Assembly (NCBI GenBank): GCA_017517705.1
Contig: JAFWYM010000025.1
Span: 36,830 to 100,829 of the forward strand
DNA length: 64,000 bases
Source: Alistipes sp.
GTDB lineage: Bacteria; Bacteroidota; Bacteroidia; Bacteroidales; Rikenellaceae
Direction of reading: 5' to 3'
Position numbers and translations under genes: made by a program. Under the pieces are notes generated by a model. It was given only the letters and a program-made list of their open reading frames with translations. It made no database searches and was not told the DNA's origin. Below, piece by piece: positions 6,170 to 35,291 of this stretch (position 1 is the first letter of the stretch; each line of letters starts with the position of its first letter).

Positions 6170-7618
6170 TTATCTCTTCTTTAACTCGGCATCGAAGGTC
6201 TTCTTACCATCGCTGTAGGCTGTGTGTACGCTCGGGCCCGAGATACAACCACCGTCGCAGACCATCACCTCGATGAACTGCGCAGGAGCCTTGCCTGTCT
6301 TACCGTAGGCCTTAAGCAGACCTACATTCTTCTTGTTGAGGCCGGCAATCTGCAATGTCGTAAAGTCGAGCTTGCCATCTACGAGCTCCTTCACGGCAGC
6401 CGTGACACCTCCATTCTCGGCAAAGCCGTGTGCCGAGCGACGCGATGCGCACTCTACGGGGTGGATGTGAGCCTCGCCGAGCTCGATGTTCATACCACCG
6501 AGGATGGCGTGTACCTCCTCGTATGTGAGTACGAAGTCTACCTTACCCTCCAAGCCCTCGCGACGTACCTCCTTACGCTTAGCGATACAGGGGCCTACGA
6601 ATACGAGCTTGGCATTGGGATACTTCTCGCGTGCGAGTTCTGCAGTGTAGATCATCGGCGAGTATGTCGTCGAGATATACTTCTTCAACTCGGGAGCATG
6701 CTTCGATGCCATCTCCATATATGAAGGACAGCACGACGTGGTCATGAAGGGCTGACCCTCAGCCATCTTCTCTGCAAACTCGTGTGTCTCTCGCTCTGTT
6801 GTGATCTCTGCGCCACGTGCCACCTCAATCACATCCTTGAAGCCTATGGCCTTGATAGCGCCATATACCTGCTCTGTGGGAGCATTGTACTGTGAGAGTA
6901 TCGAGGGGGCTACCATAGCCACAACCTCCTCGCCGCGACGTATGGCCTCGAGGATGTCGAATACCTGCGATATCTCGAAGATCGCACCGAAGGGGCAGGC
7001 GTTCATACACTTACCACAGTATATACACTTCGACTCGTCGATATGCTCCACGCCATACTCATCCTTCGAGATGGCACCCACGGGACAAGCCTCCTCGCAG
7101 GGTACGGGGATGTAGACGATAGCGTGATAGGGGCATGCAGAGTAACACTTACCGCAGCTGATACATATCTTGTGGTTGATCTTACCCTGCGATGTGTCGG
7201 GGTCGAACTCTATGGCACCCTTGGGGCAGGCGTGCTCGCAGGCACGCGCCACGCAGCCGCGACAAAGGTTTGTGATATCGTAGTTGGTACGCACGCACGA
7301 CGAGCAAGCCTCGTCGATTACGCACATAATGTTGTCCTTGATCTTTGTGCGATCGAGCGTCATCTTGGCATAGTCCGATAGGGGCATCAGCTCATCCTTC
7401 TCGTCGGTCATATCCCAGCCTAAGAGGGGGAGTGACTTGTACTTCCATACGGCGCGCTCCTTGTGGATGCAGCAGCGGCCACGCACCTGAGAGTTACGGG
7501 GACTGAACTCGATGGGCACTCTGTCGATTTTTTCAACGAGCTGGCCCTCATTCCAGAGGCTCACGAGTTTTGTGAGGAGTCTCTGGCGCACGATCATAAC
7601 GTTATTTTTAATTGCCAT
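6170..7618 (-). CDS. hydA: [FeFe] hydrogenase catalytic subunit, group B-like
   Basis: Cytoplasmic H2-evolving or H2-oxidising enzyme using ferredoxin-type electrons; 482 residues. Cys-rich ferredoxin-like clusters occupy about residues 119-208: C119/C122/C127/C131, C152/C155/C158/C162, C174/C178 and C198/C201/C204/C208. H-domain motifs follow: L1 TSCCPSY (C296 proton-transfer, C297 ligand), L2 GPCIAKRKE (C344) and L3 VCDGGCISGP (C454, C458). L2 begins with Gly-Pro-Cys instead of Met-Pro-Cys, and L3 has CDGGC instead of the A-type ACxxGC, which fits group B enzymes. There is no N-terminal [2Fe-2S] domain. First gene of the operon, with its own promoter (7646-7678). Subgroup assignment is by motif only. 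Confidence 0.93.
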   Translation of the reverse strand: MAIKNNVMIVRQRLLTKLVSLWNEGQLVEKIDRVPIEFSPRNSQVRGRCCIHKERAVWKYKSLPLLGWDMTDEKDELMPLSDYAKMTLDRTKIKDNIMCVIDEACSSCVRTNYDITNLCRGCVARACEHACPKGAIEFDPDTSQGKINHKICISCGKCYSACPYHAIVYIPVPCEEACPVGAISKDEYGVEHIDESKCIYCGKCMNACPFGAIFEISQVFDILEAIRRGEEVVAMVAPSILSQYNAPTEQVYGAIKAIGFKDVIEVARGAEITTERETHEFAEKMAEGQPFMTTSCCPSYMEMASKHAPELKKYISTTYSPMIYTAELAREKYPNAKLVFVGPCIAKRKEVRREGLEGKVDFVLTYEEVHAILGGMNIELGEAHIHPVECASRRSAHGFAENGGVTAAVKELVDGKLDFTTLQIAGLNKKNVGLLKAYGKTGKAPAQFIEVMVCDGGCISGPSVHTAYSDGKKTFDAELKKR

Positions 7619-7645
7619 ACGCTAAAAGTTGGGTTTTCAATTGAA

Positions 7646-7678
7646 CAAAGGTAATAATTTTTACGCCAAACATACAAA
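7646..7678 (-). promoter_or_regulatory. Promoter of the hydA-E-G-F operon
   Basis: On the minus strand TTTG (7678-7675), 21 nt, then TACCTTTG (7653-7646), an exact match to the Bacteroidetes -33/-7 consensus. It predicts a leader of about 20 nt before hydA. Confidence 0.65.
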
Positions 7679-7861
7679 TTTATTACTCTTTTTTATCGCT
7701 AACCCTAACTTTTATATCCTATGTGGTTATTTCCGTAAGAGAAATATTGCTTTTAAGTGGTGAAGTGGCGCTGTGCTGCGGGTCGCTCCGCTTGAAATGG
7801 CACTGCCAAAGCATAACCTTGAGGAGGTTTTTAGCTGTGTCATAAACCCTCAACCCGATAA

Positions 7862-7895
7862 TACAAAATAAAACTGCGCCCCGAGGAGCGCAGTT
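7862..7895 (-). terminator. Rho-independent terminator of the 1030-aa lipoprotein gene
   Basis: Read on the minus strand, an 8-bp stem AACTGCGC/GCGCAGTT (arms 7888-7895 and 7872-7879) is followed by a T-rich tail, 15 bp after the lipoprotein stop. The remaining sequence up to the hydA promoter (about 7,680-7,860) holds no convincing gene. Confidence 0.7.
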
Positions 7896-7909
7896 AGAGG
7901 TTATAATTA

Positions 7910-10900
7910 TTATTCAGGATTACCAGGGTAATAACTGTCTACATTGTATGACCACGTAGGTCTAAAAAGTGACCCACTTCTTTTCTGCTTATATTCAGCA
8001 TCCGTAAAACTTCCTCCTGTCCAACTTATAGAGTTTCCTTGTTTTACTTCCTCTGTTATCGTTACTGATGCAAAATTTAGAGCATTAAACGTGAGAGTTC
8101 CCGCGCAGTCGTTAACGTGAGTGAGGTCAATACCAAATAATTTAACATCCACACCAATGTAATATGCACATCCAACTACTTCGCAGTATTTTCCACTTGC
8201 ATAATTGTGGCTATATTTATTAGTACTTGTTGCTTGTATTCCATTGTATGAGTTCCCACTTACAGTGTAGTCTGATACTGTAATATTATAATCACTCCCT
8301 CCCTCTTTTCTTTCGGATACAACATCGCCAATAAACTGATTTACGTGTCTGCCTGCAACGTCAGTATTTCCTTTTGCGAAGATCTTGACACCAGATCTAT
8401 ATGGGTCGTTAATATTAAAATCTGCACTATCCCATACATTCGCTACAACGGGTTTGTTGTCTTGTCCCACACAATTAATTTCAGTGTTGGTTACGCTACA
8501 ATGATCTATTGTCGCGGTTTTAGACTTAATAAATCCAATAAGCCCTCCACACTCTCCATTAGTATACCACCACTGCAAACAATTGACTTCAGCTGTTGAA
8601 GGAATTTTACCAACGCCGAAAAGTGATGTAAGACCAGACACACTCTGTACACTCGATAGGTTAAGTGTATATCTTCTGGGCAGGGTATAGTAATTGGGGA
8701 CACCTGGCTCATAGTTTTCAACTACGTATTTGTCGACAGAGCAGTCTTTCATTTTGAAATTTGTCGAGCCAACGTATCCAATGGCACCACCCATTTTACA
8801 CACTGCATATACTGTTCCATTCTTGAAATGTACGTTTTCCGCTGTGTAGTCGCCACCTGTATGTGATACCAGCGTTCCAGCGTATGCATTACCTGCTCCA
8901 CCATCGTCAGTAACACCGTATGCAGGTGTAGGTATATTTGTATTGTGAACATTCTTAATATATGCACGTTCAAATGTAAGATTTTTATGCGTCGTAGTAC
9001 CACTCGCTGTCTGAATAAATGCAGCACCAGTGCCATCGTGCACCATATCTACATACAAGTCGTATAGTGTGTGCCCTTGGCCATCAAGGTTAGTGATCGT
9101 GCGAATAGGATTAAACTTATTCTTCGATTTCGTGTAGCTACCTCCAAGGTCTACATCACTCTTGAATGTTACCGATGAGTGAGAGCCCTTCTGCAAATAT
9201 GCCAAATCGAAGGCCGAGTAGATTGAAGTAGAGCCATCCTCTGTTAGGGGCTCGACCGTCGTTATGCCATCCCACTTGGGTACGAAGAGCTTATCGCCGA
9301 AATATACCGTGCCACGGTGGTACACCTCGTCGCCAAGCATAGCGTCGTACTTGCTATCTACGGGCTCGAGCCAGCAGCTCTGCTGTGCCGCGGTGTAGTG
9401 CGATACGTAGTCGTCGACACGTGTTGTGGCGTTATCGACAGTGCAGTTATCCTTGATGATCAGCGTCTCGCCACTGTCGTAGCCACTGAAGAGACCCACT
9501 AAGTGACCCTCGCTGAGGCTGCCCGCGGCAGTGACGTCAGTGAGCTGGCAGTTGTCGATGGTGACGCTATATGTCACATCGCGGTTTGTCTCGTCGGCAC
9601 GTCCGATATATCCTATAAGGCCACCCGCAGCGCCATTTGTCGTATTTACGCGGGCGTTGCGTATCGACACATTGCTGTACGTCACGTTGTCGCCATTGTC
9701 GAGCTTTACCTCGTCGAGGAGCACACCCACGTGGCCCGTGGTCGTGTCGTCACCGACGGTGATGGTGTCGACGTTGAGGTCGTGAATGGAGAGGGCCTTG
9801 TCGATGGTGAAGAGCGAGTTGCCATCGACAACGACATTCGAGATGCTCTTGTTGTTACCATCGAAGTCGCTGACCTGTACGGGGAAGGGTTTGACAACGT
9901 TGCCTCCCATATCCATATCTGTCGTGATGCGTATCTTGTTCTTACCCTTCGTATCTTCGTTTTGTAGCACCCATGCGAGCTCCTCGACCTCGTTCAGAAC
10001 AAGCCATTCGCCATCGATGGTCATAGGCTCAACGAGTGTAGTGCCATCCCAGCCGCCTGCGAGCATCTCGCCACGCAGCGTGGTGAGGTGGCCGCGCTTG
10101 AGTTTAACGTCGGTGATGGGGTCGAGGGCGTTGATCTCGTTGTCGCTACCATCGAGGAATGACGCCCTGATGCCGATGTTCATACCATCCTTCGGGACGA
10201 TGAGGTAGTCAACAAGCACCGTCTGGTTGGTCTTGAGCTGGTCGCCATCATCGCCATCCGTGTAGTTGAGGGTTGTGGCCGTGAGCGTGTGCGTCGTATT
10301 GTTGTCGGTGGTCGATGCCTCGCCCGTGGCTATGTTGAGCGTGTTGTAGAGCGTGCCGTCGTATGTTATCTCCACCTTGTCGGCCTTGGTGTCGGCGTCG
10401 GTGGCCATCATGCGGAGCTTGGCAAGGGGGCGTGTGAGGGTGGCAGTGAGGGCCTTATTGCCCGTAGCCTCCCAGTCGATCACGCCATAGAGAGCGTCGC
10501 GCGATTCGTCGTTGAGGCCATACTCCTCTTTGAGTGTTACGAGGGGTAGGTTCTCGGTGTTGTAGTGGAGGTCCACGCCCATGCCGTCGGCGCCATACTC
10601 CTTGACATAGTCCGCCCAGAGGTACACCTTGTATTCACGGCCGGCGGTGACCTCGAGGTCGAGCTTTATCGAGGCTGTGAGATCGCTCCTCTTGGTGATG
10701 AAGTATACATCCTCGTCGGCAATATCGTTGGCATTGTCGCCCGTGCCATAGGCCTTAGCTATGATACGTAGCACATAGCCATCAGCGTGACCATCATCCT
10801 TGAAGTCGACATTCACCGTGCCTCCCAAGGCGCTATCTACGGCGCGCGTTGTTCCTGCAAGGTTGGGGAGTATGGCGTCGATAGTCATCGTGGCGATGCC

Positions 10901-11002
10901 ATCGTCGGTGCTACCACCCACGTTGTCTATATCGCTATCGTGCGTACAGCCTACGGCGAGGATAAGGCCGAGGAGTAGTAAAATGAAGCCTCTGAGTCTC
11001 AT
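7910..11002 (-). CDS. Large surface lipoprotein: fimbrillin-like (DUF6562-like) domain plus beta-helix region
   Basis: 1030 residues with a lipoprotein signal (lipobox AVGC, C19). Residues about 35-330 match the N-terminal domain of the next two genes: a first strand ending in TTRA (R53), then REYKVYLWADY, DESRDALYG and LTRPLAKLRMM. I read this as a DUF6562/fimbrillin-like beta sandwich. The remainder is repetitive and rich in Asn, Thr and Gly with GLIGYIG and GGLIGFI motifs, suggesting a GLUG-like right-handed beta-helix. From about residue 594 (near 9,220) the DNA turns clearly more AT-rich, so the gene looks mosaic. Function unknown; adhesin or pilus-associated surface protein is plausible. 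Confidence 0.8.
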   Translation of the reverse strand: MRLRGFILLLLGLILAVGCTHDSDIDNVGGSTDDGIATMTIDAILPNLAGTTRAVDSALGGTVNVDFKDDGHADGYVLRIIAKAYGTGDNANDIADEDVYFITKRSDLTASIKLDLEVTAGREYKVYLWADYVKEYGADGMGVDLHYNTENLPLVTLKEEYGLNDESRDALYGVIDWEATGNKALTATLTRPLAKLRMMATDADTKADKVEITYDGTLYNTLNIATGEASTTDNNTTHTLTATTLNYTDGDDGDQLKTNQTVLVDYLIVPKDGMNIGIRASFLDGSDNEINALDPITDVKLKRGHLTTLRGEMLAGGWDGTTLVEPMTIDGEWLVLNEVEELAWVLQNEDTKGKNKIRITTDMDMGGNVVKPFPVQVSDFDGNNKSISNVVVDGNSLFTIDKALSIHDLNVDTITVGDDTTTGHVGVLLDEVKLDNGDNVTYSNVSIRNARVNTTNGAAGGLIGYIGRADETNRDVTYSVTIDNCQLTDVTAAGSLSEGHLVGLFSGYDSGETLIIKDNCTVDNATTRVDDYVSHYTAAQQSCWLEPVDSKYDAMLGDEVYHRGTVYFGDKLFVPKWDGITTVEPLTEDGSTSIYSAFDLAYLQKGSHSSVTFKSDVDLGGSYTKSKNKFNPIRTITNLDGQGHTLYDLYVDMVHDGTGAAFIQTASGTTTHKNLTFERAYIKNVHNTNIPTPAYGVTDDGGAGNAYAGTLVSHTGGDYTAENVHFKNGTVYAVCKMGGAIGYVGSTNFKMKDCSVDKYVVENYEPGVPNYYTLPRRYTLNLSSVQSVSGLTSLFGVGKIPSTAEVNCLQWWYTNGECGGLIGFIKSKTATIDHCSVTNTEINCVGQDNKPVVANVWDSADFNINDPYRSGVKIFAKGNTDVAGRHVNQFIGDVVSERKEGGSDYNITVSDYTVSGNSYNGIQATSTNKYSHNYASGKYCEVVGCAYYIGVDVKLFGIDLTHVNDCAGTLTFNALNFASVTITEEVKQGNSISWTGGSFTDAEYKQKRSGSLFRPTWSYNVDSYYPGNPE

Positions 11003-11339
11003 TATGTTGCTCTCTTTTTGTTATCGTAATGTTGCCACACGCAGTGCTTCGAGCCATCATCGTCATGCTTTCAGCCCGCTGTGTGACACGGGGTGTGGCG
11101 TCACTCATGCCACACCATGGTATATATCGTACGGGTGTCTGCAGTCCGTAGGATTTTCATATCTTGGGGCTCTATTAGAGCCGTCTGCGAGTGCTCTGCC
11201 GCCTATGTCGGCTATGCGTGGCACTCTGCCGTCATCGCGAGCGATGACACGCGCCACTATGGCGCTAATGGTAACTACCACCCTCGGGGCGAGTCCCTGC
11301 CCGCCCCATAAGTGGTTGTTGTGTGGGTGTCGAGGTATT
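11003..11339. other. 337-bp intergenic segment with several short perfect hairpins
   Basis: No credible gene. At least four inverted repeats are visible: 11092-11116 (8-bp arms GGTGTGGC/GCCACACC), 11168-11182 (GGCTCT/AGAGCC), 11231-11248 (GTCATCGC-GA-GCGATGAC) and 11286-11307 (GGGGCG/CGCCCC). None has a T-run, so they are not ordinary terminators. The segment lies between two paralogous minus-strand lipoprotein genes and could be a structured leader. Confidence 0.6.
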
Positions 11340-12302
11340 TTACTTCTCTACCCAGTTGCCGCTGCCATCCTGCTCGTATTCGATCTCGCCGGTGATGCCG
11401 TCGACTATCGTACACTCGATATTGGCAGTGCTTGTAAGTGTTGCTCCCTTAAGCGTTGTGAGCTTGTTGGGTCTCACGGGGATATCGGTGTTTACCACCA
11501 TCGTGTATATCTCCGCAGTGTCATCCTTCGAGGTGAGCGAGAACTGTATGGTCGTGGTATCGCCACCGAAGAGGTATGCCGTAAGGAGTGTGAGTTTATC
11601 TCCCGATGCCTCATTGCCATACTCCACGATGCTGGCTCCAGTGTTGGCCGATATGGTGGTGCTGAGAAGCTCGCCAGTCTTGAGGTTGTAGCCCGCAGGC
11701 AGCGTTGCGCAGCTGAACACCACGTTGTCGGGCTCCTGGCCAAACGATAGCTTCTTGGCATCGGTAGTTACCACGCGGAGCTTACCCATAGGACGGGTGA
11801 GGTTGAGTGTCACGCCTGTCTGTGTCTTGAGTATTGTGGCTGAGCCACAGTAGGCATCACGGCTCTCGTCGTTGACCTTCACGCCATCCTTGTATGTTAT
11901 GGCAGCGAAGTCCTCTGTGTTGTAGTGCAAGTCCGTACGGGTGCCCTCCTCGACGAAGTCGGCCCATACATATACCTTGTAGTCGCGACCCGCGGTGAGT
12001 GTTATCTCCTTGGTGTAGTTGTCGCCATTTGTAACATCCACAATACGATCGAAGGCCATCTTTGTGCCATCGTTGGCGTCGTATACCTCTATCTGGTAGC
12101 GAAGGTCGTACTTCGCCCAGTCGATATTCGACTTGCCACTTGTGGCGCTATCGTTGTTGGCACGTGTCTCCACCTCGGGGAGTGCTACGCTTAGGGTCAC
12201 GCACTTCTGGCCACCGATGTTAACATCGAGCTCACCTTTGGGCTCGGCGCAGCCAACACATGCTGCAGCTGCCGCTAAAAGCCAAAGTCTCTGTAGTTTC
12301 AT
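11340..12302 (-). CDS. Fimbrillin-like (DUF6562-like) lipoprotein, single-domain
   Basis: 320 residues, lipobox VGC (C18). The whole mature protein corresponds to the N-terminal domain of its two large neighbours: PEVETRANN (R47), DYKVYVWADF, NDESRDAYCG, LNLTRPMGKLRVV and RPNKLTTLKG. It lacks the beta-helix extension. The Arg after the first strand sits where Porphyromonas-type fimbrillins are cut by trypsin-like proteases, but such TRA motifs are common in Bacteroidetes lipoproteins, so pilus assembly is only a possibility. Middle gene of a three-paralogue set, separated from the upstream one by a hairpin. Confidence 0.8.
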   Translation of the reverse strand: MKLQRLWLLAAAAACVGCAEPKGELDVNIGGQKCVTLSVALPEVETRANNDSATSGKSNIDWAKYDLRYQIEVYDANDGTKMAFDRIVDVTNGDNYTKEITLTAGRDYKVYVWADFVEEGTRTDLHYNTEDFAAITYKDGVKVNDESRDAYCGSATILKTQTGVTLNLTRPMGKLRVVTTDAKKLSFGQEPDNVVFSCATLPAGYNLKTGELLSTTISANTGASIVEYGNEASGDKLTLLTAYLFGGDTTTIQFSLTSKDDTAEIYTMVVNTDIPVRPNKLTTLKGATLTSTANIECTIVDGITGEIEYEQDGSGNWVEK

Positions 12303-22405: not shown

Positions 22406-23608
22406 ATGGTAATTTTGGTTCTTAACTGCGGTAGCTCGTCTATCAAGTATCAGGTGCTTGATGTTCTGGAGTCGTCGCACACGCTTCTGGCCAAGGGTCT
22501 TGTAGAGCGTATCGGTCTTGCTGAGGGTGATCTTGTACACAAACCTCAGGGCAAGGATAAGTACGAGGTGTCGTGCCCCATTCCCGACCACACAACAGGT
22601 ATACGCCTTGTGTTGGATGCTTTGACACACCCCGAGCATGGTGTCATCAAGTCGCTCGACGAGCTTAAGGCTGCAGGTCACCGCGTAGCACACGGTGGCG
22701 AGTTCTTCCACGACAGCTGTCTTGTGGATGAGGAGGTTAAGGCTAAGATTGAGTCGTTGTACTCGATTGCACCGCTTCACAACCCCGCAAACCTCGAGGG
22801 TATACTCTCGATGGAGCGCGTGTTGCCCGGTATCAAGCAGGTGGCTGTGTTCGACACGTCGTTCCACCACACCATTCCCGCAATCAACTATATGTATGCC
22901 ATCCCCTATGAGTACTACGAGAAGTATCGCGTGAGAAAGTATGGCTTCCATGGCACGAGCCACAAGTATGTTGCCCGCGTGGGTGCCGAGATGTTTGGCC
23001 TTGACTTCGAGAACGCGAAGATTGTTACTTGCCACATTGGTAATGGTGCCTCGGTTACGGCTGTGAAGAATGGCAAGTCGTTCGATACATCTATGGGCTT
23101 CACGCCGCTCGATGGTCTTGTGATGGGTACACGTGCCGGCTCGATGGATGTGAGCGCTGCAACTTACATCGCCGAGAAGGAGGGTATGTCGTACAAGGAG
23201 CTTGACAGCATGCTTAACAAGAGGTCGGGTGTGCAGGGTCTCACAGGCATATCGAGCGATATGCGCGACATTGACGCTGCGTACGATGAGGGTAACGAGC
23301 GTGCAATCATGGCTCGCGATATGTACTGCAACCGCGTGAAGAAGTTCGTGGGTGAGTATGCTGCCGAGATGGGTGGCGTAGACCTCCTGGTATTCACCGG
23401 TGGTGTTGGCGAGAACTCACCCGAGTTGCGCGAGTATGTATTGAGCAACATGGAGTTCATGGGTATCGATTTCGACGCTGAGCGCAACCGTGGCAAGCGT
23501 GGTACGGATTACGAGATTACGGCTGAGGGCTCACGTGTGAAGGCTGCTGTCATCTGCACTGACGAGGAGCTCGTTATTGCTAAGGATACCTATCGCCTCA
23601 CAAAATAG
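22406..23608 (+). CDS. ackA: Acetate kinase
   Basis: Interconverts acetyl phosphate plus ADP with acetate plus ATP, the ATP-yielding step of acetate fermentation. It has 400 residues, the usual length, and belongs to the ASKHA fold. The N-terminal VLNCGSSSIKY, the FHGTSHKYV segment, HIGNGAS and GxRxGxxD-type GTRAGSMDV are all present. First gene of a plus-strand operon with ptb (32-bp gap) and buk. No pta gene lies beside it, so its acetyl phosphate comes either from a distant Pta or from the neighbouring acyltransferase. Codon choice is biased and uniform across the three genes, fitting high expression. Confidence 0.95.
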   Translation: MVILVLNCGSSSIKYQVLDVLESSHTLLAKGLVERIGLAEGDLVHKPQGKDKYEVSCPIPDHTTGIRLVLDALTHPEHGVIKSLDELKAAGHRVAHGGEFFHDSCLVDEEVKAKIESLYSIAPLHNPANLEGILSMERVLPGIKQVAVFDTSFHHTIPAINYMYAIPYEYYEKYRVRKYGFHGTSHKYVARVGAEMFGLDFENAKIVTCHIGNGASVTAVKNGKSFDTSMGFTPLDGLVMGTRAGSMDVSAATYIAEKEGMSYKELDSMLNKRSGVQGLTGISSDMRDIDAAYDEGNERAIMARDMYCNRVKKFVGEYAAEMGGVDLLVFTGGVGENSPELREYVLSNMEFMGIDFDAERNRGKRGTDYEITAEGSRVKAAVICTDEELVIAKDTYRLTK

Positions 23609-23640
23609 AAAAATCACTAACTAAAATACCTAAAACTATT

Positions 23641-24543
23641 ATGATTAAGCATTTGGATGAGATCGTTGCTGCGGCCGTGGCTCGTGGCAAGAAGAAGATG
23701 ATTGTGGCATACGGCCAGGATACGCACTCTATCGGCGCTACCGATATGGCTATCAAGGCTGGTCTTGCGGAGGTGACCCTTGTGGGTGATCCCGAGGAGA
23801 TCAAGAAGTCGTGCGAGGCTGAGGGCGTAGATATGAGCCAGTATACCATCATCGAGGAGAAGGAGGATGTTAAGGCTGTTGAGATTGCTGTTAAGGCTGT
23901 ACACAATGGCGAGTACGACGTCTTGATGAAGGGTGTTGTTCCCACGGATAAGTATATGCGTGGTATCTTGAACAAGGAGTGGGGTTTGTTGCCCGCAGGC
24001 ACAACATTGAGCCACGTTACTGTTCTCGAGATTCCCAAGTATCACAAGTTGCTCGTTGTTAGCGACGTGGCAGTTCTTCCCTGCCCCACGCTCGACCAGA
24101 AGAAGCAGATAGCGAAGTATCTCCTTGAGACAGCCAACAACCTCGGCGTTGAGTGCCCCAAGATGGCCTTCATCGCACCATCGGAGCAGCTTCTTCCTAA
24201 GGTAGTTAGCTCGGTTGAGGCTAAGGAGCTTGGTGAGTTGGGTGCTGCCGGTGAGCTAGGCAAGGGCTTGTTCCAGGGTCCCTTGGCATTGGATGTGGCT
24301 ATCGACGAGGAGAGCGTTAAGATCAAGAAGTTGCAGGGTCCCGTTGCCGGCGATGCTGACTGCTTGTTGTTCCCCAACCTCGAGTCTGGTAACGTATTCT
24401 TCAAGGCTTGCTCAAAGTTCGGTGGTGCTGAGTTGGCTGCTATGGTTGCAGGCCCTATGGCTCCCTGTGTGTTGACATCACGTGGCGATACAACTAAGAC
24501 GAAGCTCTACTCTATCGCTTTGGCTTGCTTGTCAGCAAAATAG
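23641..24543 (+). CDS. ptb: Phosphate butyryltransferase
   Basis: Transfers butyryl (or related short and branched acyl) groups from CoA to phosphate. Its 300 residues match clostridial Ptb closely in length, and the protein belongs to the PTA/PTB fold. Seen: MKGVVPTDKYMR in the active-site region, SDVAVLPCPTLDQK, and VAGDADCLLFPNLESGN, the family's C-terminal signature. Its position between ackA and buk, rather than beside a pta, supports Ptb over phosphate acetyltransferase, though some activity on acetyl-CoA is possible. Confidence 0.9.
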   Translation: MIKHLDEIVAAAVARGKKKMIVAYGQDTHSIGATDMAIKAGLAEVTLVGDPEEIKKSCEAEGVDMSQYTIIEEKEDVKAVEIAVKAVHNGEYDVLMKGVVPTDKYMRGILNKEWGLLPAGTTLSHVTVLEIPKYHKLLVVSDVAVLPCPTLDQKKQIAKYLLETANNLGVECPKMAFIAPSEQLLPKVVSSVEAKELGELGAAGELGKGLFQGPLALDVAIDEESVKIKKLQGPVAGDADCLLFPNLESGNVFFKACSKFGGAELAAMVAGPMAPCVLTSRGDTTKTKLYSIALACLSAK

Positions 24544-24571
24544 TAGTCTAACATAAGTAAAATATACGAAG

Positions 24572-25639
24572 ATGGCTTATAAGATATTGACCATTAACCC
24601 GGGCTCTACATCTACCAAGGTGGCATTGTTCCACGATATGGAGCAGGTTAAGACCTTGAAGCTCAGCCACTCGGCAGAGGAGATTGCTCGCTTTGCTTCG
24701 GTTGCTGACCAGCTCGACTGGCGCTTGGAGATTATCCTCGATGCGTTGAAGGCTGACGGCATAGAGCTCAAGTCGTTGGATGCTGTCATTGGCCGTGGTG
24801 GTCTTATGCGCCCCATCGAGGGTGGCGTATACCGCGTGGGTGAGGCTATGATTGCCGACCTCTCGGCTCCCAAGCGTCAGCACGCGAGCAACCTCGGTGC
24901 GCTGATTGCACGCCGCATAGCTGATGCAGCAGGTGTTGAGGCCTACATCGCTGATCCCGTTGTTGTGGATGAGCTTCAGGATATGGCTCGCGTGAGCGGT
25001 ATCAAGGAGTTGCCTCGTCGCTCTATCTTCCACGCTCTCAACCAGAAGGCTATCGCTCGTCGCTATGCTGCGGAGGTGGGTCGTCCCTATGAGGACTTGA
25101 ACCTCGTCGTAGTACACATGGGTGGCGGTATCTCTGTCTCGGCGCACTGCAAGGGTCGTGTTATCGACACTAACAATGCCCTTGATGGCGATGGCCCTAT
25201 CGCACCGGAGCGCGCAGGTACGTTGCCTGCGGGTGACCTTGTGGACCTCTGCTTCTCGGGCAAGTACGACAAGGGCGAGATTAAGAAGCTCTTGGCGGGT
25301 AAGGGTGGTCTTGTTGACCATGTTAACTGCAACAACGTGCAGGAGTTGAACGAGGTACGTGCGGCAGGTGGCGACAAGGAGGCTCGCTTTATGCTCGACA
25401 CGATGTCGTACTCTGTAGCCAAGTGGATTGGCGAGATGGCTGTTGTGTTGAAGGGTCAGGTGGATGCTATCCTGCTCACGGGCGGTATCGCATGGAACGA
25501 CTGCGTTAACGACATCATCGTTGACTACTGTAAGTTCCTCGCGCCTATTAAGATCTACCCTGGCGAGAACGAGCTCGAGTCGTTGGCCGAGAATGCGTTG
25601 CGTGTGCTTAAGGGTGAGACCGTGGCTAAGGAGTACTAA
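24572..25639 (+). CDS. buk: Butyrate kinase
   Basis: Converts butyryl phosphate (or isobutyryl/isovaleryl phosphate) and ADP to the acid and ATP. It has 355 residues and the ASKHA fold: INPGSTSTKVA at the N-terminus, GRGGLMRPIEGGVY, FHALNQKAIARR, VVHMGGGISVSAH and LTGGIAWN. These are Buk rather than AckA signatures. It follows ptb by 28 bp. Paired with ptb it gives a kinase route to butyrate or branched acids from leucine/valine breakdown; the upstream acyl-CoA genes are not in the window. Confidence 0.94.
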   Translation: MAYKILTINPGSTSTKVALFHDMEQVKTLKLSHSAEEIARFASVADQLDWRLEIILDALKADGIELKSLDAVIGRGGLMRPIEGGVYRVGEAMIADLSAPKRQHASNLGALIARRIADAAGVEAYIADPVVVDELQDMARVSGIKELPRRSIFHALNQKAIARRYAAEVGRPYEDLNLVVVHMGGGISVSAHCKGRVIDTNNALDGDGPIAPERAGTLPAGDLVDLCFSGKYDKGEIKKLLAGKGGLVDHVNCNNVQELNEVRAAGGDKEARFMLDTMSYSVAKWIGEMAVVLKGQVDAILLTGGIAWNDCVNDIIVDYCKFLAPIKIYPGENELESLAENALRVLKGETVAKEY

Positions 25640-32720: not shown

Positions 32721-33401
32721 TTACCCTATTGTGTGCATGCGTATCGATGCCTTAATAAGGGCGATGGCACGTATGCGGCTCATCTCTACCTCCTTGTCGG
32801 CATGGTGTTGGTTTTGGCTTACGAGCTTTATATATCCCTCATGCTCCGACTTCTGTACATATTTCACGGTGATGTACTCCTCGCCGTCGATGTCTATGGA
32901 TAGTAGATACATATCGCCCCAGAAAACATCCCTTACGTCGTTAAGCTGCTTGTATAGGACGATGTCGCCACTCTTAAGCAGCGGGTACATCGAGTCGCCC
33001 ATAACGTATATCGCCCCGTCGCACTTCGGCAAGTTGGGGATGTGGATGAAGTTTACAGGCTTGGCTGTCGACTCCTCGGCAAAGATGGGGACAAGACCCG
33101 CTGTGCCCTCTATCGAGTATAGGGGTACGCTCTGTAGTGGTAGCGACTTGTCGGTGCGGTGGAGATAGGGTGTGCAGTTGGGCTCGGCATTAAACATTCG
33201 CCCCTTGCCTGTCTCTATCCAATCGGGGTTGACATTCAAATCTTGAACTAATATATTCTTGTTGCGTGTCGATAGTCCGGCCTTGCCTGTCTCGATCATC
33301 GATAGTGCCGCCTTGCCGATGCCAAGTTGCTGAGCAAGTTGCTCTTGTGTTAAGTCAAGCTGCTTGCGTATAATCCTTACTCGTCCGCCAATAGTGTCCA
33401 T
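32721..33401 (-). CDS. CI/LexA-like repressor: XRE helix-turn-helix plus S24 peptidase
   Basis: 226 residues. An N-terminal XRE domain (about 5-62: LTQEQLAQQLGIGKAALSMIE) is joined to an S24/LexA-type domain with catalytic Ser137 in YVMGDSMYPLLKSGD and Lys180 in ITVKYV. An Ala-Gly pair at 101-102 in the hinge could be a self-cleavage site. Such proteins repress prophage genes and are inactivated by RecA during DNA damage. It diverges from a small ORF and a terminase gene. The intergenic region has the palindromes TTGTACAA and CTTGACAAG, the latter overlapping the plus-strand promoter. Confidence 0.88.
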   Translation of the reverse strand: MDTIGGRVRIIRKQLDLTQEQLAQQLGIGKAALSMIETGKAGLSTRNKNILVQDLNVNPDWIETGKGRMFNAEPNCTPYLHRTDKSLPLQSVPLYSIEGTAGLVPIFAEESTAKPVNFIHIPNLPKCDGAIYVMGDSMYPLLKSGDIVLYKQLNDVRDVFWGDMYLLSIDIDGEEYITVKYVQKSEHEGYIKLVSQNQHHADKEVEMSRIRAIALIKASIRMHTIG

Positions 33402-33425
33402 ATAAGAAAAATCTATATTAAATAA

Positions 33426-33446
33426 TTGTACAAAAATCTTGACAAG
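33426..33446. promoter_or_regulatory. Candidate operator of the S24 repressor
   Basis: Two small perfect palindromes, TTGTACAA (33426-33433) and CTTGACAAG (33438-33446), lie 4 nt apart between the divergent genes. The second overlaps the -33 box of the plus-strand promoter. Assignment to the repressor is an inference. Confidence 0.4.
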
Positions 33447-33469
33447 ATAAATATTTGAACGTATCTTTG
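33438..33469 (+). promoter_or_regulatory. Promoter of the small ORF/terminase pair
   Basis: CTTG (33438-33441), 20 nt, TATCTTTG (33462-33469). One mismatch in the upstream box and a perfect -7 box; leader about 75 nt. Confidence 0.55.
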
Positions 33470-33548
33470 TAGGGCAAAGTTAAACAATTTGTTTGTATTT
33501 GCAAAATTTAACCCCAAAATCTATTTAATAAACCCTAAAAAATCAATT

Positions 33549-33842
33549 ATGTACGAAATTACATCATCTATTTATCTTGAGATTGCCGAGCGTTTAGTGG
33601 TGGCGATTGCCGATAAGGAGTTCTATTCCGGTGTGGTTGTATGCTACGATGGCGATACCTGTTGTCGCCTTGTCTCGACGCTTGTGGTCTATCGTCGCCC
33701 GCAAGTCGAGGGCGGTAGTGTCGTAAGGCCCATTGTCGATGTTGTGCCTGTGTGGTGGGAGTTGCAGACGACGGTAGGGGCTGAGATTGTTGATAACGAC
33801 TTCTCGTTTAGAGAGTTGCGTAATACTATTGTGGGATGTTAG
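33549..33842 (+). CDS. Small hypothetical protein, upstream partner of the terminase
   Basis: 97 residues from the ATG at 33549. The upstream TTG at 33489 would add an unlikely 20-residue leader. I do not recognise a family. The sequence is beta-rich, with alternating strands (FYSGVVVCYDG, CRLVSTLVVYRRP, PIVDVVPVWWEL) and a short C-terminal helix (FSFRELRNTIV), and no signal peptide. It does not resemble helical terminase small subunits. It ends 12 bp before the terminase ATG and shares its promoter, so the two are probably made together under the S24 repressor. Confidence 0.65.
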   Translation: MYEITSSIYLEIAERLVVAIADKEFYSGVVVCYDGDTCCRLVSTLVVYRRPQVEGGSVVRPIVDVVPVWWELQTTVGAEIVDNDFSFRELRNTIVGC

Positions 33843-33854
33843 TGGTCGGGTTGT

Positions 33855-35291
33855 ATGAAGAGTAATGTGACACCCTCGGAGCCTATGCCCGGTTTCATCG
33901 ATTTTGCCGCGGAGGTCTACCCCTTCTTGGAGTTTACCCCCTTTCATCGTACCTACTACACCATCCTCGAGGCCTTTGCCACGGGGCGCATCAGGCGCCT
34001 CATTGTCTCGATGCCGCCACAGCACGGTAAGAGTGTGGGGGCCACGACGTTGCTACCCGCATATATGCTCGGCCTCGACCCCGATATGCGTATAGCCATA
34101 GCCTCATACTCGGGAACGCTCGCCTCGAAGTTCAATCGTCGCGTGCAGCGCATCATCGAGTCGCGCGAGTATGAGGCTATGTTTCCCGAGACGACCATCA
34201 AGCGTGGCACGCGCCCGCCGGGCTACATACGCACCTCGGATGAGGTGGAGATAATCGACCATAAGGGTGAGCTCTTAAGCGTCGGCCGCGAGGGGTCGCT
34301 CACGGGAAATCGTGTTGACTGCTTCATCCTCGATGACCTCTACAAGGATGCTATGGAGGCGCAGTCGCCCGTCATACGCGAGAACTGCTGGGAGTGGTAT
34401 ACTTCGGTGGTGCGTACGCGCATGCACAATGCCTCGCGTGAGCTGATAGTGTTCACACGCTGGCACGAGGATGACCTCATCGGCGCGCTGGGACGTACGG
34501 AGTCCTTTCGTATGCTGCGCTCGTGGCGCGACATCGACGAGGTGGGGGAGGATGAGTGGCTTGTGCTAAACTTCGAGGCGCTCAAGGCCTCGCCGGCAAC
34601 GGAGATAGATCCTCGCAGTGAGGCTGAGGCGCTCTGGCCCGAGCAGCAGAGCCGCGAATTGTTGCTCGCGAAGCGTCGCCTCGACCCTGTGCGCTTCGAG
34701 GCTATGTATCAGGGACATCCCTCGTCAAAGGAGGGGTTGCTCTATGGCGATGGCTTCCGTCAGTATAAGCTCCTGCCACGCGATATTGTGGCACGCTCGA
34801 ACTATACCGACACGGCAGATGCGGGCGATGATTATCTCTGCTCGGTGGACTATGTTGTGGATACGGATGGCATCATATATGTCACCGACGTGGTCTACTC
34901 GCGCGAGGCGATGGAGCATACCGAGCCTCTGGTTGCGGCGATGCTCAAGCGCGAGGGTATACGTCGAGCCTATGTGGAGAGTAATAACGGAGGTCGTGGC
35001 TTCGCCCGCTCGTTGCAACGCTTGGTTCCCGAGACGCGCGTAGAGTGGTTTCACCAGTCGGCAAATAAGGAGGCGCGCATCCTCTCCAACGCCGCGACGG
35101 TGCTCCACATGGTGCGTATGCCCGAGGATTGGTGTGTGCGCTGGGCGGAGTTCTATGCCCATGTGACTACCTATAAGCGCCTCTTTCGCGCCAATCGCCA
35201 CGACGATGCTGCCGATGTGCTTACGGGCATTGTCGAGCGTGAGGTTACGATGGACTCGAGCGGACGCTGGCAGCGTGTGCGGTTTATATGA
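33855..35291 (+). CDS. Phage-type terminase large subunit (isolated)
   Basis: DNA-packaging motor/nuclease family, 478 residues. ATPase: Walker A-like MPPQHGKS (53-60), Walker B DCFILDD (155-161) and a coupling motif in VFTRWHEDD (199-207). The RNase H-like nuclease has Asp332 (SVDYV), Glu375 (VESNN) and Asp450/451 (HDDAADVL), so both active sites look intact. There are no portal, capsid, protease, tail or integrase genes on either side; argR and potA flank the module. Either the last trace of a prophage or a domesticated motor kept under the adjacent repressor. Confidence 0.88.
   Translation: MKSNVTPSEPMPGFIDFAAEVYPFLEFTPFHRTYYTILEAFATGRIRRLIVSMPPQHGKSVGATTLLPAYMLGLDPDMRIAIASYSGTLASKFNRRVQRIIESREYEAMFPETTIKRGTRPPGYIRTSDEVEIIDHKGELLSVGREGSLTGNRVDCFILDDLYKDAMEAQSPVIRENCWEWYTSVVRTRMHNASRELIVFTRWHEDDLIGALGRTESFRMLRSWRDIDEVGEDEWLVLNFEALKASPATEIDPRSEAEALWPEQQSRELLLAKRRLDPVRFEAMYQGHPSSKEGLLYGDGFRQYKLLPRDIVARSNYTDTADAGDDYLCSVDYVVDTDGIIYVTDVVYSREAMEHTEPLVAAMLKREGIRRAYVESNNGGRGFARSLQRLVPETRVEWFHQSANKEARILSNAATVLHMVRMPEDWCVRWAEFYAHVTTYKRLFRANRHDDAADVLTGIVEREVTMDSSGRWQRVRFI

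Follow-up and report, generated by a model that had tools for sequence, protein, structure and literature searches.

The stretch of DNA analysed here, hereafter the window, comprises 64,000 nucleotides of contig JAFWYM010000025.1 from Alistipes sp. (assembly GCA_017517705.1) and contains a trio of genes of phage type: a repressor of the S24/LexA type (S24), a divergent gene for an orphan protein (orf97) and the gene for a terminase large subunit (TerL) (Table 1). All three reading frames are open and conserved in relatives, so the trio is not due to chance. A first-pass annotation of the window had described an S24-XRE repressor diverging from a 97-aa reading frame and TerL, and this layout is confirmed by the coordinates, by Pfam and by phrog_38. 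The flanking genes named in that annotation also agree with the Pfam domain matches, which give an arginine repressor (argR) and an ABC ATPase with a TOBE domain (potA). However, argR and the pot operon lie beside the trio only in part of the named loci, which are the best 80 of 154. The source genome (G000, 1.99 Mb in 48 contigs) has a single TerL of this kind, on contig C38.

Table 1. Features of the trio (positions in the window) and genes of the second operon, L252, on contig C15 of the same genome
Feature	Position	Strand	Basis
S24/LexA-type repressor, N-terminal XRE helix-turn-helix, 226 aa	32721..33401	-	Pfam, PHROG
Divergent promoter region, repressor/orf97 intergenic	33402..33548	.	73 homologous intergenic regions compared
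orf97, 97 aa, orphan protein	33549..33842	+	Locus conservation, AlphaFold2
TerL, terminase large subunit, 478 aa	33855..35291	+	phrog_38, TIGR01630
L252 protease			PF00574; phrog_94 E 1e-34
L252 capsid			phrog_11320 E 9.8e-7; phrog_1623 E 2.8e-5
L252 portal	C15:72616-73806		PF04860; phrog_11226 E 2.7e-18
L252 connector			DUF6712 E 2.9e-4, below cut-off
L252 holin			PF05105 E 2.8e-12
L252 endolysin			phrog_873 E 1.4e-41

TerL matches the terminase large subunit family phrog_38 with E 4.6e-90 and scores 68.3 bits against TIGR01630, for which the cut-off is 41.65. Comparison of 115 TerL sequences shows that Walker A (P54-S60), D160/D161, E375, D451 and D454 are invariant. The ATPase and nuclease residues had all been described as looking intact; the motifs are indeed intact, with Walker A, D160/D161, E375 and D451 unchanged, but D332 and D450 are not conserved. 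These two positions vary among the 115 sequences, with C (43%) and H (64%) as the respective commonest residues. A DTAD stretch including D319 is conserved in at least 97%, and D319 is presumably the first nuclease aspartate rather than D332. The nearest phage TerLs, with 44-48% identity among the matches listed, belong to phages of Bacteroides and Parabacteroides, and six phage TerLs form one clade in the TerL tree.

The S24 protein matches Peptidase_S24 (E 2.7e-13) and HTH_3 (E 7.8e-11) in Pfam and the transcriptional repressor family phrog_4 (E 4.1e-33). In all 74 S24 proteins compared from the genus, the putative cleavage site A101-G102 and the dyad S137/K180 are unchanged. A conserved site and dyad of this kind are expected of a self-cleaving repressor stimulated by RecA, and a DNA-damage switch operated by the S24 repressor is plausible from these LexA-type features. 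The intergenic region contains a promoter of the Bacteroidota type, with TTGACA at 33439 and TATCTTTG at 33462-33469, in line with the regulated-looking promoter suggested earlier; of 73 homologous intergenic regions scanned by script, 72 contain TAnnTTTG. Downstream of TATCTTTG, the conserved sequence AAAGTTAA..AATTT is a possible operator. In a sister genus, the trio is situated between a uracil-DNA-glycosylase-like gene and umuC/umuD-like genes (L166 of G183, 6181-11866), a DNA-damage neighbourhood in which the gene names were assigned by eye.

The orf97 family is characterised by the motifs FxSG, VPVWWE and NDFSF, and no convincing match was found in Pfam, PHROGs, NCBIfam, PADLOC or PDB sequences. 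The first-pass description of the protein as beta-rich is roughly right, as the AlphaFold2 model (mean pLDDT 97) shows strands flanked by a helix on either side; fold comparison gave no clear relative of this model. When the order was searched, the orf97 profile matched 6 of 393 genomes, of which five belong to the Rikenellaceae and one is a weak partial match. The family was thus seen only in Rikenellaceae among the genomes searched.

At a cut-off of E <= 0.001, TerL is present within the genus in 169 of 180 genomes, 68 of the 70 good-quality ones among them, and within the Rikenellaceae in 243 of 268 (106 of the 110 good-quality ones) from 18 of 22 genera, mostly as a single copy. An order-wide sample searched at E <= 1e-30, a limit that one of the 243 family genomes (G191) fails, gave 9 of 286 genomes including three Rikenellaceae, which corresponds to six of at most 283 genomes outside the family. 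S24, orf97 and TerL have the same order and orientation in 78 of the 80 named loci, and the remaining two (L037 and L095) are cut by a contig end; in L077, L100-L102 and L108, orf97 was assigned first from its position and afterwards with a profile that includes three of these five. Both S24 and orf97 were found in 31 of 38 further loci, from which L186 and L187 had been excluded because of a different, prophage-type TerL. The exceptions come from genera g10 (two, with a diverged S24), g16 (one) and g19 (four). Among the 31, the S24 frame is split in L189 and TerL is broken in L185, and single internal stops in TerL occur in G100, G114, G209 and G210. The trio is fixed while the flanking genes vary between loci. 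The rarity and decay that the first-pass annotation named as counter-evidence were not found inside the family, where broken copies are few.

Selection was assessed as omega (dN/dS, Nei-Gojobori). Omega of TerL is 0.04-0.16 in the twelve closest pairs with a median of 0.17 in 392 pairs with dS 0.05-1.2, and omega of S24 is 0.03-0.07 in the twelve closest pairs with a median of 0.10 in 422 pairs. TerL and the repressor are under strong purifying selection, and the neutral evolution that would have spoken against a kept module was not found for TerL. The values for orf97 are higher (0.08-0.37 in the twelve closest pairs, median 0.36 in 175 pairs, maximum 0.88). The proposal that the trio is kept by selection is therefore supported by its prevalence, the low omega, the invariant residues and its constancy amid changing flanks. 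A fixed ancestral prophage in slow decay and with no present function would agree with the partial losses, the few broken copies and the lack of recognised genes for tails, replication or integration. This is nevertheless extremely unlikely because nearly all listed TerL matches are open, the active-site residues are invariant, the median omega is low for both TerL and S24, and the trio persists although the genes around it change. A decayed prophage was also rejected as a candidate on account of low omega, conserved sites and prevalence.

The trio had been regarded as isolated, with no other phage gene present. This is true of the neighbourhood, where the six nearest proteins were scanned and the others inspected by eye, but not of the genome, since contig C15 carries genes for a protease, capsid, portal, connector, holin and endolysin. 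The link between the two sets is seen in the basal genera g16 and g19, where the neighbours of TerL are a head protease of the ClpP type, a capsid protein, a portal (PF04860) and a presumed connector (DUF6712), with host genes beyond them. All five g16/g19 loci examined have terL, protease, capsid, portal and connector contiguously, with a small gene in the place of terS, and this arrangement is ancestral-looking. The small gene upstream of TerL is terS-like by position and has a weak match (E 0.019) to phrog_645, the family of the protein immediately before TerL in phage B40-8. No tail or integration genes were recognised beside the head genes in these loci.

A capsid profile (A2) built from g16 and g19 matches 244 of 268 family genomes and 106 of 110 good ones, mostly once and including G000. 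The portal profile (A3) matches 49 of 55 selected genomes, some of these without TerL. The second operon in G000 is ordered as genes for proteins of 318 aa and 778 aa, protease, capsid, portal, connector, holin and endolysin, all with open frames. Twenty second loci were fetched because a portal was present; capsid and connector were found in all 20, protease in 19, g778 in 18, g318 in 12, holin in 10 and lysozyme in 9, and the gene order is constant wherever the genes were detected. Omega is 0.11-0.15 for second-locus genes in the close pair L255-L257. On the closed chromosomes of G152, G180 and G182 the two loci are 0.2 to 2 Mb apart, and in G181 the distance is about 20 kb.

Other features of the second locus were also observed. 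A variable family of 144-178 aa, possibly a tail-tube protein, is located between capsid and portal in some genera (L277:1388-1837 and relatives). A conserved promoter, CTTGACAAGGGGGTA...TATATTTG, precedes the second operon (L252:3813-4088, L253-L255, L257 and L263) and is found upstream in 9 of the 20 loci. It is followed by spaced repeats of TTATC(A/C/G)ACA, similar to DnaA boxes, with 13 copies in 6.2 kb of upstream sequence; the remaining 228 kb of these 12 loci, which include one from G000, contain 11.

The two loci tend to occur together. TerL and capsid are both present in 233 of the 268 family genomes, TerL only in 10, capsid only in 11 and neither in 14 (Fisher p 7e-11, uncorrected for relatedness and completeness; five and four unlisted genomes without TerL or capsid, respectively, were deduced by elimination). 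Distances were compared with those of the host marker PyrG in 30 genomes, giving r 0.60 for TerL, 0.64 for portal and 0.66 for capsid, and 0.90, 0.88 and 0.92 respectively within the genus (12 genomes); none of 2000 permutations was as high in either comparison. The correlations of TerL with capsid, TerL with S24 and S24 with capsid are 0.78-0.93 within the genus, and TerL and S24 give r 0.44 family-wide (13 of 2000 permutations). Clades shared by the TerL, portal and PyrG trees are g1, g2, g19, g20, g16 with g19, and g5 with g14 (weak in the TerL tree), as well as (G018,(G000,G031)) and G144 with G015. The positions of G149 and G194 differ between the trees, with low support, and the deep nodes are unresolved. 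The TerL and portal trees largely track the host marker.

Outside the family a different pattern is found. Portal relatives were detected in nine non-family genomes and five family members in a sample of 374, and four portal loci from three of the nine outside genomes (L297-L299 and L301) are prophage-like with other terminases, as judged by eye. Two outside relatives of TerL (G327 and G531), 45-47% identical, are surrounded by methylase, SSB, ParB-like, small-terminase-like and other phage-type genes, also by eye. These kinds of genes are sporadic outside the family, and near-universal and scattered inside it. On the question of whether neighbours of homologues are full prophages, these two outside relatives do lie in prophages; in g16 and g19 the resemblance extends only to head genes adjoining TerL. 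In the source genome, the contiguous run of phage genes with integration, replication and tail modules that marks a prophage is not seen, and host-type genes flank both loci (six nearest window proteins scanned, others by eye; no genome-wide integrase search was made).

The first-pass annotation proposed that the trio by itself is a damage-induced or anti-phage DNA-processing module, in which case it would be unconnected with the capsid locus. The physical separation from the capsid genes and the trio's own LexA-type switch are consistent with this, as are two genomes of good quality (G137 and G174) that retain TerL without capsid or portal. Still, such a module is very improbable given the association of TerL with the capsid gene and its position beside head genes in g16 and g19, and known TerL activity requires a portal. 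PADLOC-DB 2.0.0 gave no defence match for TerL or orf97, and the weak hits for S24 (best E 3.9e-8) were read as its helix-turn-helix. A defence role for the trio alone was therefore dropped, in view of the absent PADLOC matches for TerL and orf97 and the co-occurrence of capsid and portal genes with TerL. A full phage elsewhere was also rejected: in the phage collection the capsid and the 778-aa protein each match only one unverified faecal scaffold, and the portal has matches in 218 phage records, all of them over less than 80% of the query, with 21-24% identity among the matches listed. In IMG/VR, seven of ten contigs have the gene order of the second locus and three do not. The 7.4-kb scaffold MT838736.1 (L296), an unverified 'Bacteriophage sp.' from human faeces, contains relatives of the capsid (52.5%) and of the 778-aa protein (38.9%) and may represent a bacterial locus deposited under a phage name.

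The trio probably serves for packaging and switching in a domesticated phage-head system whose loci are dispersed. In the Rikenellaceae, this system would most likely be a gene transfer agent (GTA). Judging from the conserved cleavage site and dyad, the S24 repressor would keep the divergent orf97-terL promoter silent and would cleave itself in response to DNA damage. TerL would then be made, dock on proheads formed by the protease, capsid, portal and connector from the C15 operon, and package lengths of host chromosome. The small-terminase-like gene of the basal genera is missing in the source genome, so packaging is probably sequence-unspecific, and orf97 may replace the small terminase or modulate TerL. 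The holin and endolysin of the second operon, whose families are recognised by sequence, would release the particles. From their position and size, the 318- and 778-aa proteins at the head of the operon may, at a guess, be a short tail or a part that contacts the host. The two loci are unlinked in the source genome and are thus unlikely to be packaged jointly.

GTAs are described as derived from caudoviricetes, endogenised often at multiple loci and mostly vertically inherited, with particles that mostly contain random host DNA, have a head too small for their own genes and deliver the DNA (PMC9662315). Caudoviricete-derived proteins are found in the source genome (TerL, protease, portal, holin and endolysin, and the capsid by its weak phrog_1623 match and position). 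They are endogenised at multiple loci, with TerL on C38 and the head and lysis operon on C15, and inheritance is mostly vertical with co-diversification with the host as measured with one host marker in 30 genomes.

Several observations weigh against a GTA made up of these two loci. The capsid is called from its position and from weak PHROG matches (E 2.8e-5 in G000 and 7.2e-9 in L170), Pfam giving none, the DUF6712 match of the connector in G000 is below the cut-off, and holin and endolysin are found in about half of the 20 second loci. The median omega is higher in the second locus (portal 0.27, capsid 0.36, protease 0.42, g778 0.55), where dS is near saturation. No convincing operator common to both loci was found by eye. 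The orf97 profile has no match in g10, g16 or g19, and no S24 match was found in g19. Family-wide distances correlate weakly between TerL and capsid (r 0.33, 0 of 2000 permutations) and between S24 and capsid (r 0.19, 123 of 2000 permutations). In addition to the two good genomes with TerL only, G161 and G169 have capsid and portal without TerL, and in L185 (G012:C13:45609-46641) TerL is broken while the repressor, orf97, capsid and portal genes remain. There is also no recognised tail in G000, which lacks both a tail-tube-like gene found in 17 of 37 genomes and a chaperone-like gene found in 5 of 37.

The missing tail, together with the presence of head, packaging and lysis genes, would also suit particles that package DNA without delivering it, serving for PBSX-like killing or for lysis in response to damage and not for transfer. 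A killing particle usually needs a tail and a receptor-binding protein, of which none is evident, and the conservation of TerL and portal suggests selection on packaging itself; a non-delivering particle is therefore unlikely. PBSX in Bacillus subtilis is inducible by DNA damage and encoded in one gene cluster with a tail. Two articles present it as a GTA-like element that packages random host DNA and is bacteriocin-like, with no DNA transfer (PMC7667829, PMC12946183).

Among known GTAs, a close counterpart of the Alistipes system is FpGTA of Faecalibacterium prausnitzii (PMC12946183). Both have two separate operons in a gut commensal; FpGTA has packaging and head genes in one operon and further structural genes, holin and endolysin in the other, and its particles have no identifiable tails, as no tail was recognised here. 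In contrast, Alistipes belongs to another phylum, the genes next to terL encode a LexA-type repressor and an orphan protein, and capsid and portal are encoded together with the lysis proteins at the other locus. FpGTA is also backed by particle, DNA and proteomic evidence, whereas the Alistipes system is known from genes alone. RcGTA, BaGTA and BhGTA are likewise caudoviricete-derived, endogenised (often at multiple loci) and vertically inherited (PMC9662315); the phage ancestor in Alistipes is a different one, as the nearest phage TerLs indicate. In the phage collection, the closest TerLs among the matches listed are those of Bacteroides fragilis phages of the B40-8/B124-14 group (47-48% identity). 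These phages have many further genes, and the portal and structural proteins of B40-8 belong to other PHROG families, hence only the terminase lineage is shared.

Elsewhere in the window, at 22406-25639, inspection by eye gives three adjacent genes resembling those for acetate kinase, phosphate butyryltransferase and butyrate kinase, which suggests butyrate metabolism in the source genome.

Few GTAs have known genes and most of these are alphaproteobacterial, and FpGTA was reported in 2026 as the first GTA in the human gut microbiome, according to PMC12946183. The main text of that article names Rikenellaceae once, as an abundant family, and does not name Alistipes. No GTA in Rikenellaceae was found by title or abstract among the papers searched, whose coverage excludes preprints and most subscription papers. 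Virus-particle patterns fitting generalised transduction or GTAs are described for 46 mouse-gut contigs in PMC7667829. The homologous locus in MT838736.1 illustrates that such genes can be filed as phage.

A wider scenario can be offered tentatively, with confidence that stops somewhat short of an even balance. In most Rikenellaceae, a GTA switched on by damage, with its packaging locus unlinked from its head/lysis locus, may go back to a single ancient domestication; Alistipes would then have lost the small terminase, with orf97 replacing it and freeing TerL from sequence-specific packaging. Bacteroidota would thereby gain their first known GTA, and DNA would be exchanged in a common gut genus by a route so far unrecognised. 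If true, a family-wide GTA in Alistipes would bring Bacteroidota into the study of these elements, with a phage ancestor of separate origin and, through deletion of terL or the S24 gene, simple genetic access. The extent of gene flow in the gut through capsids could then be tested directly, and such a GTA might account for some of the host DNA in virus-particle data from the gut.

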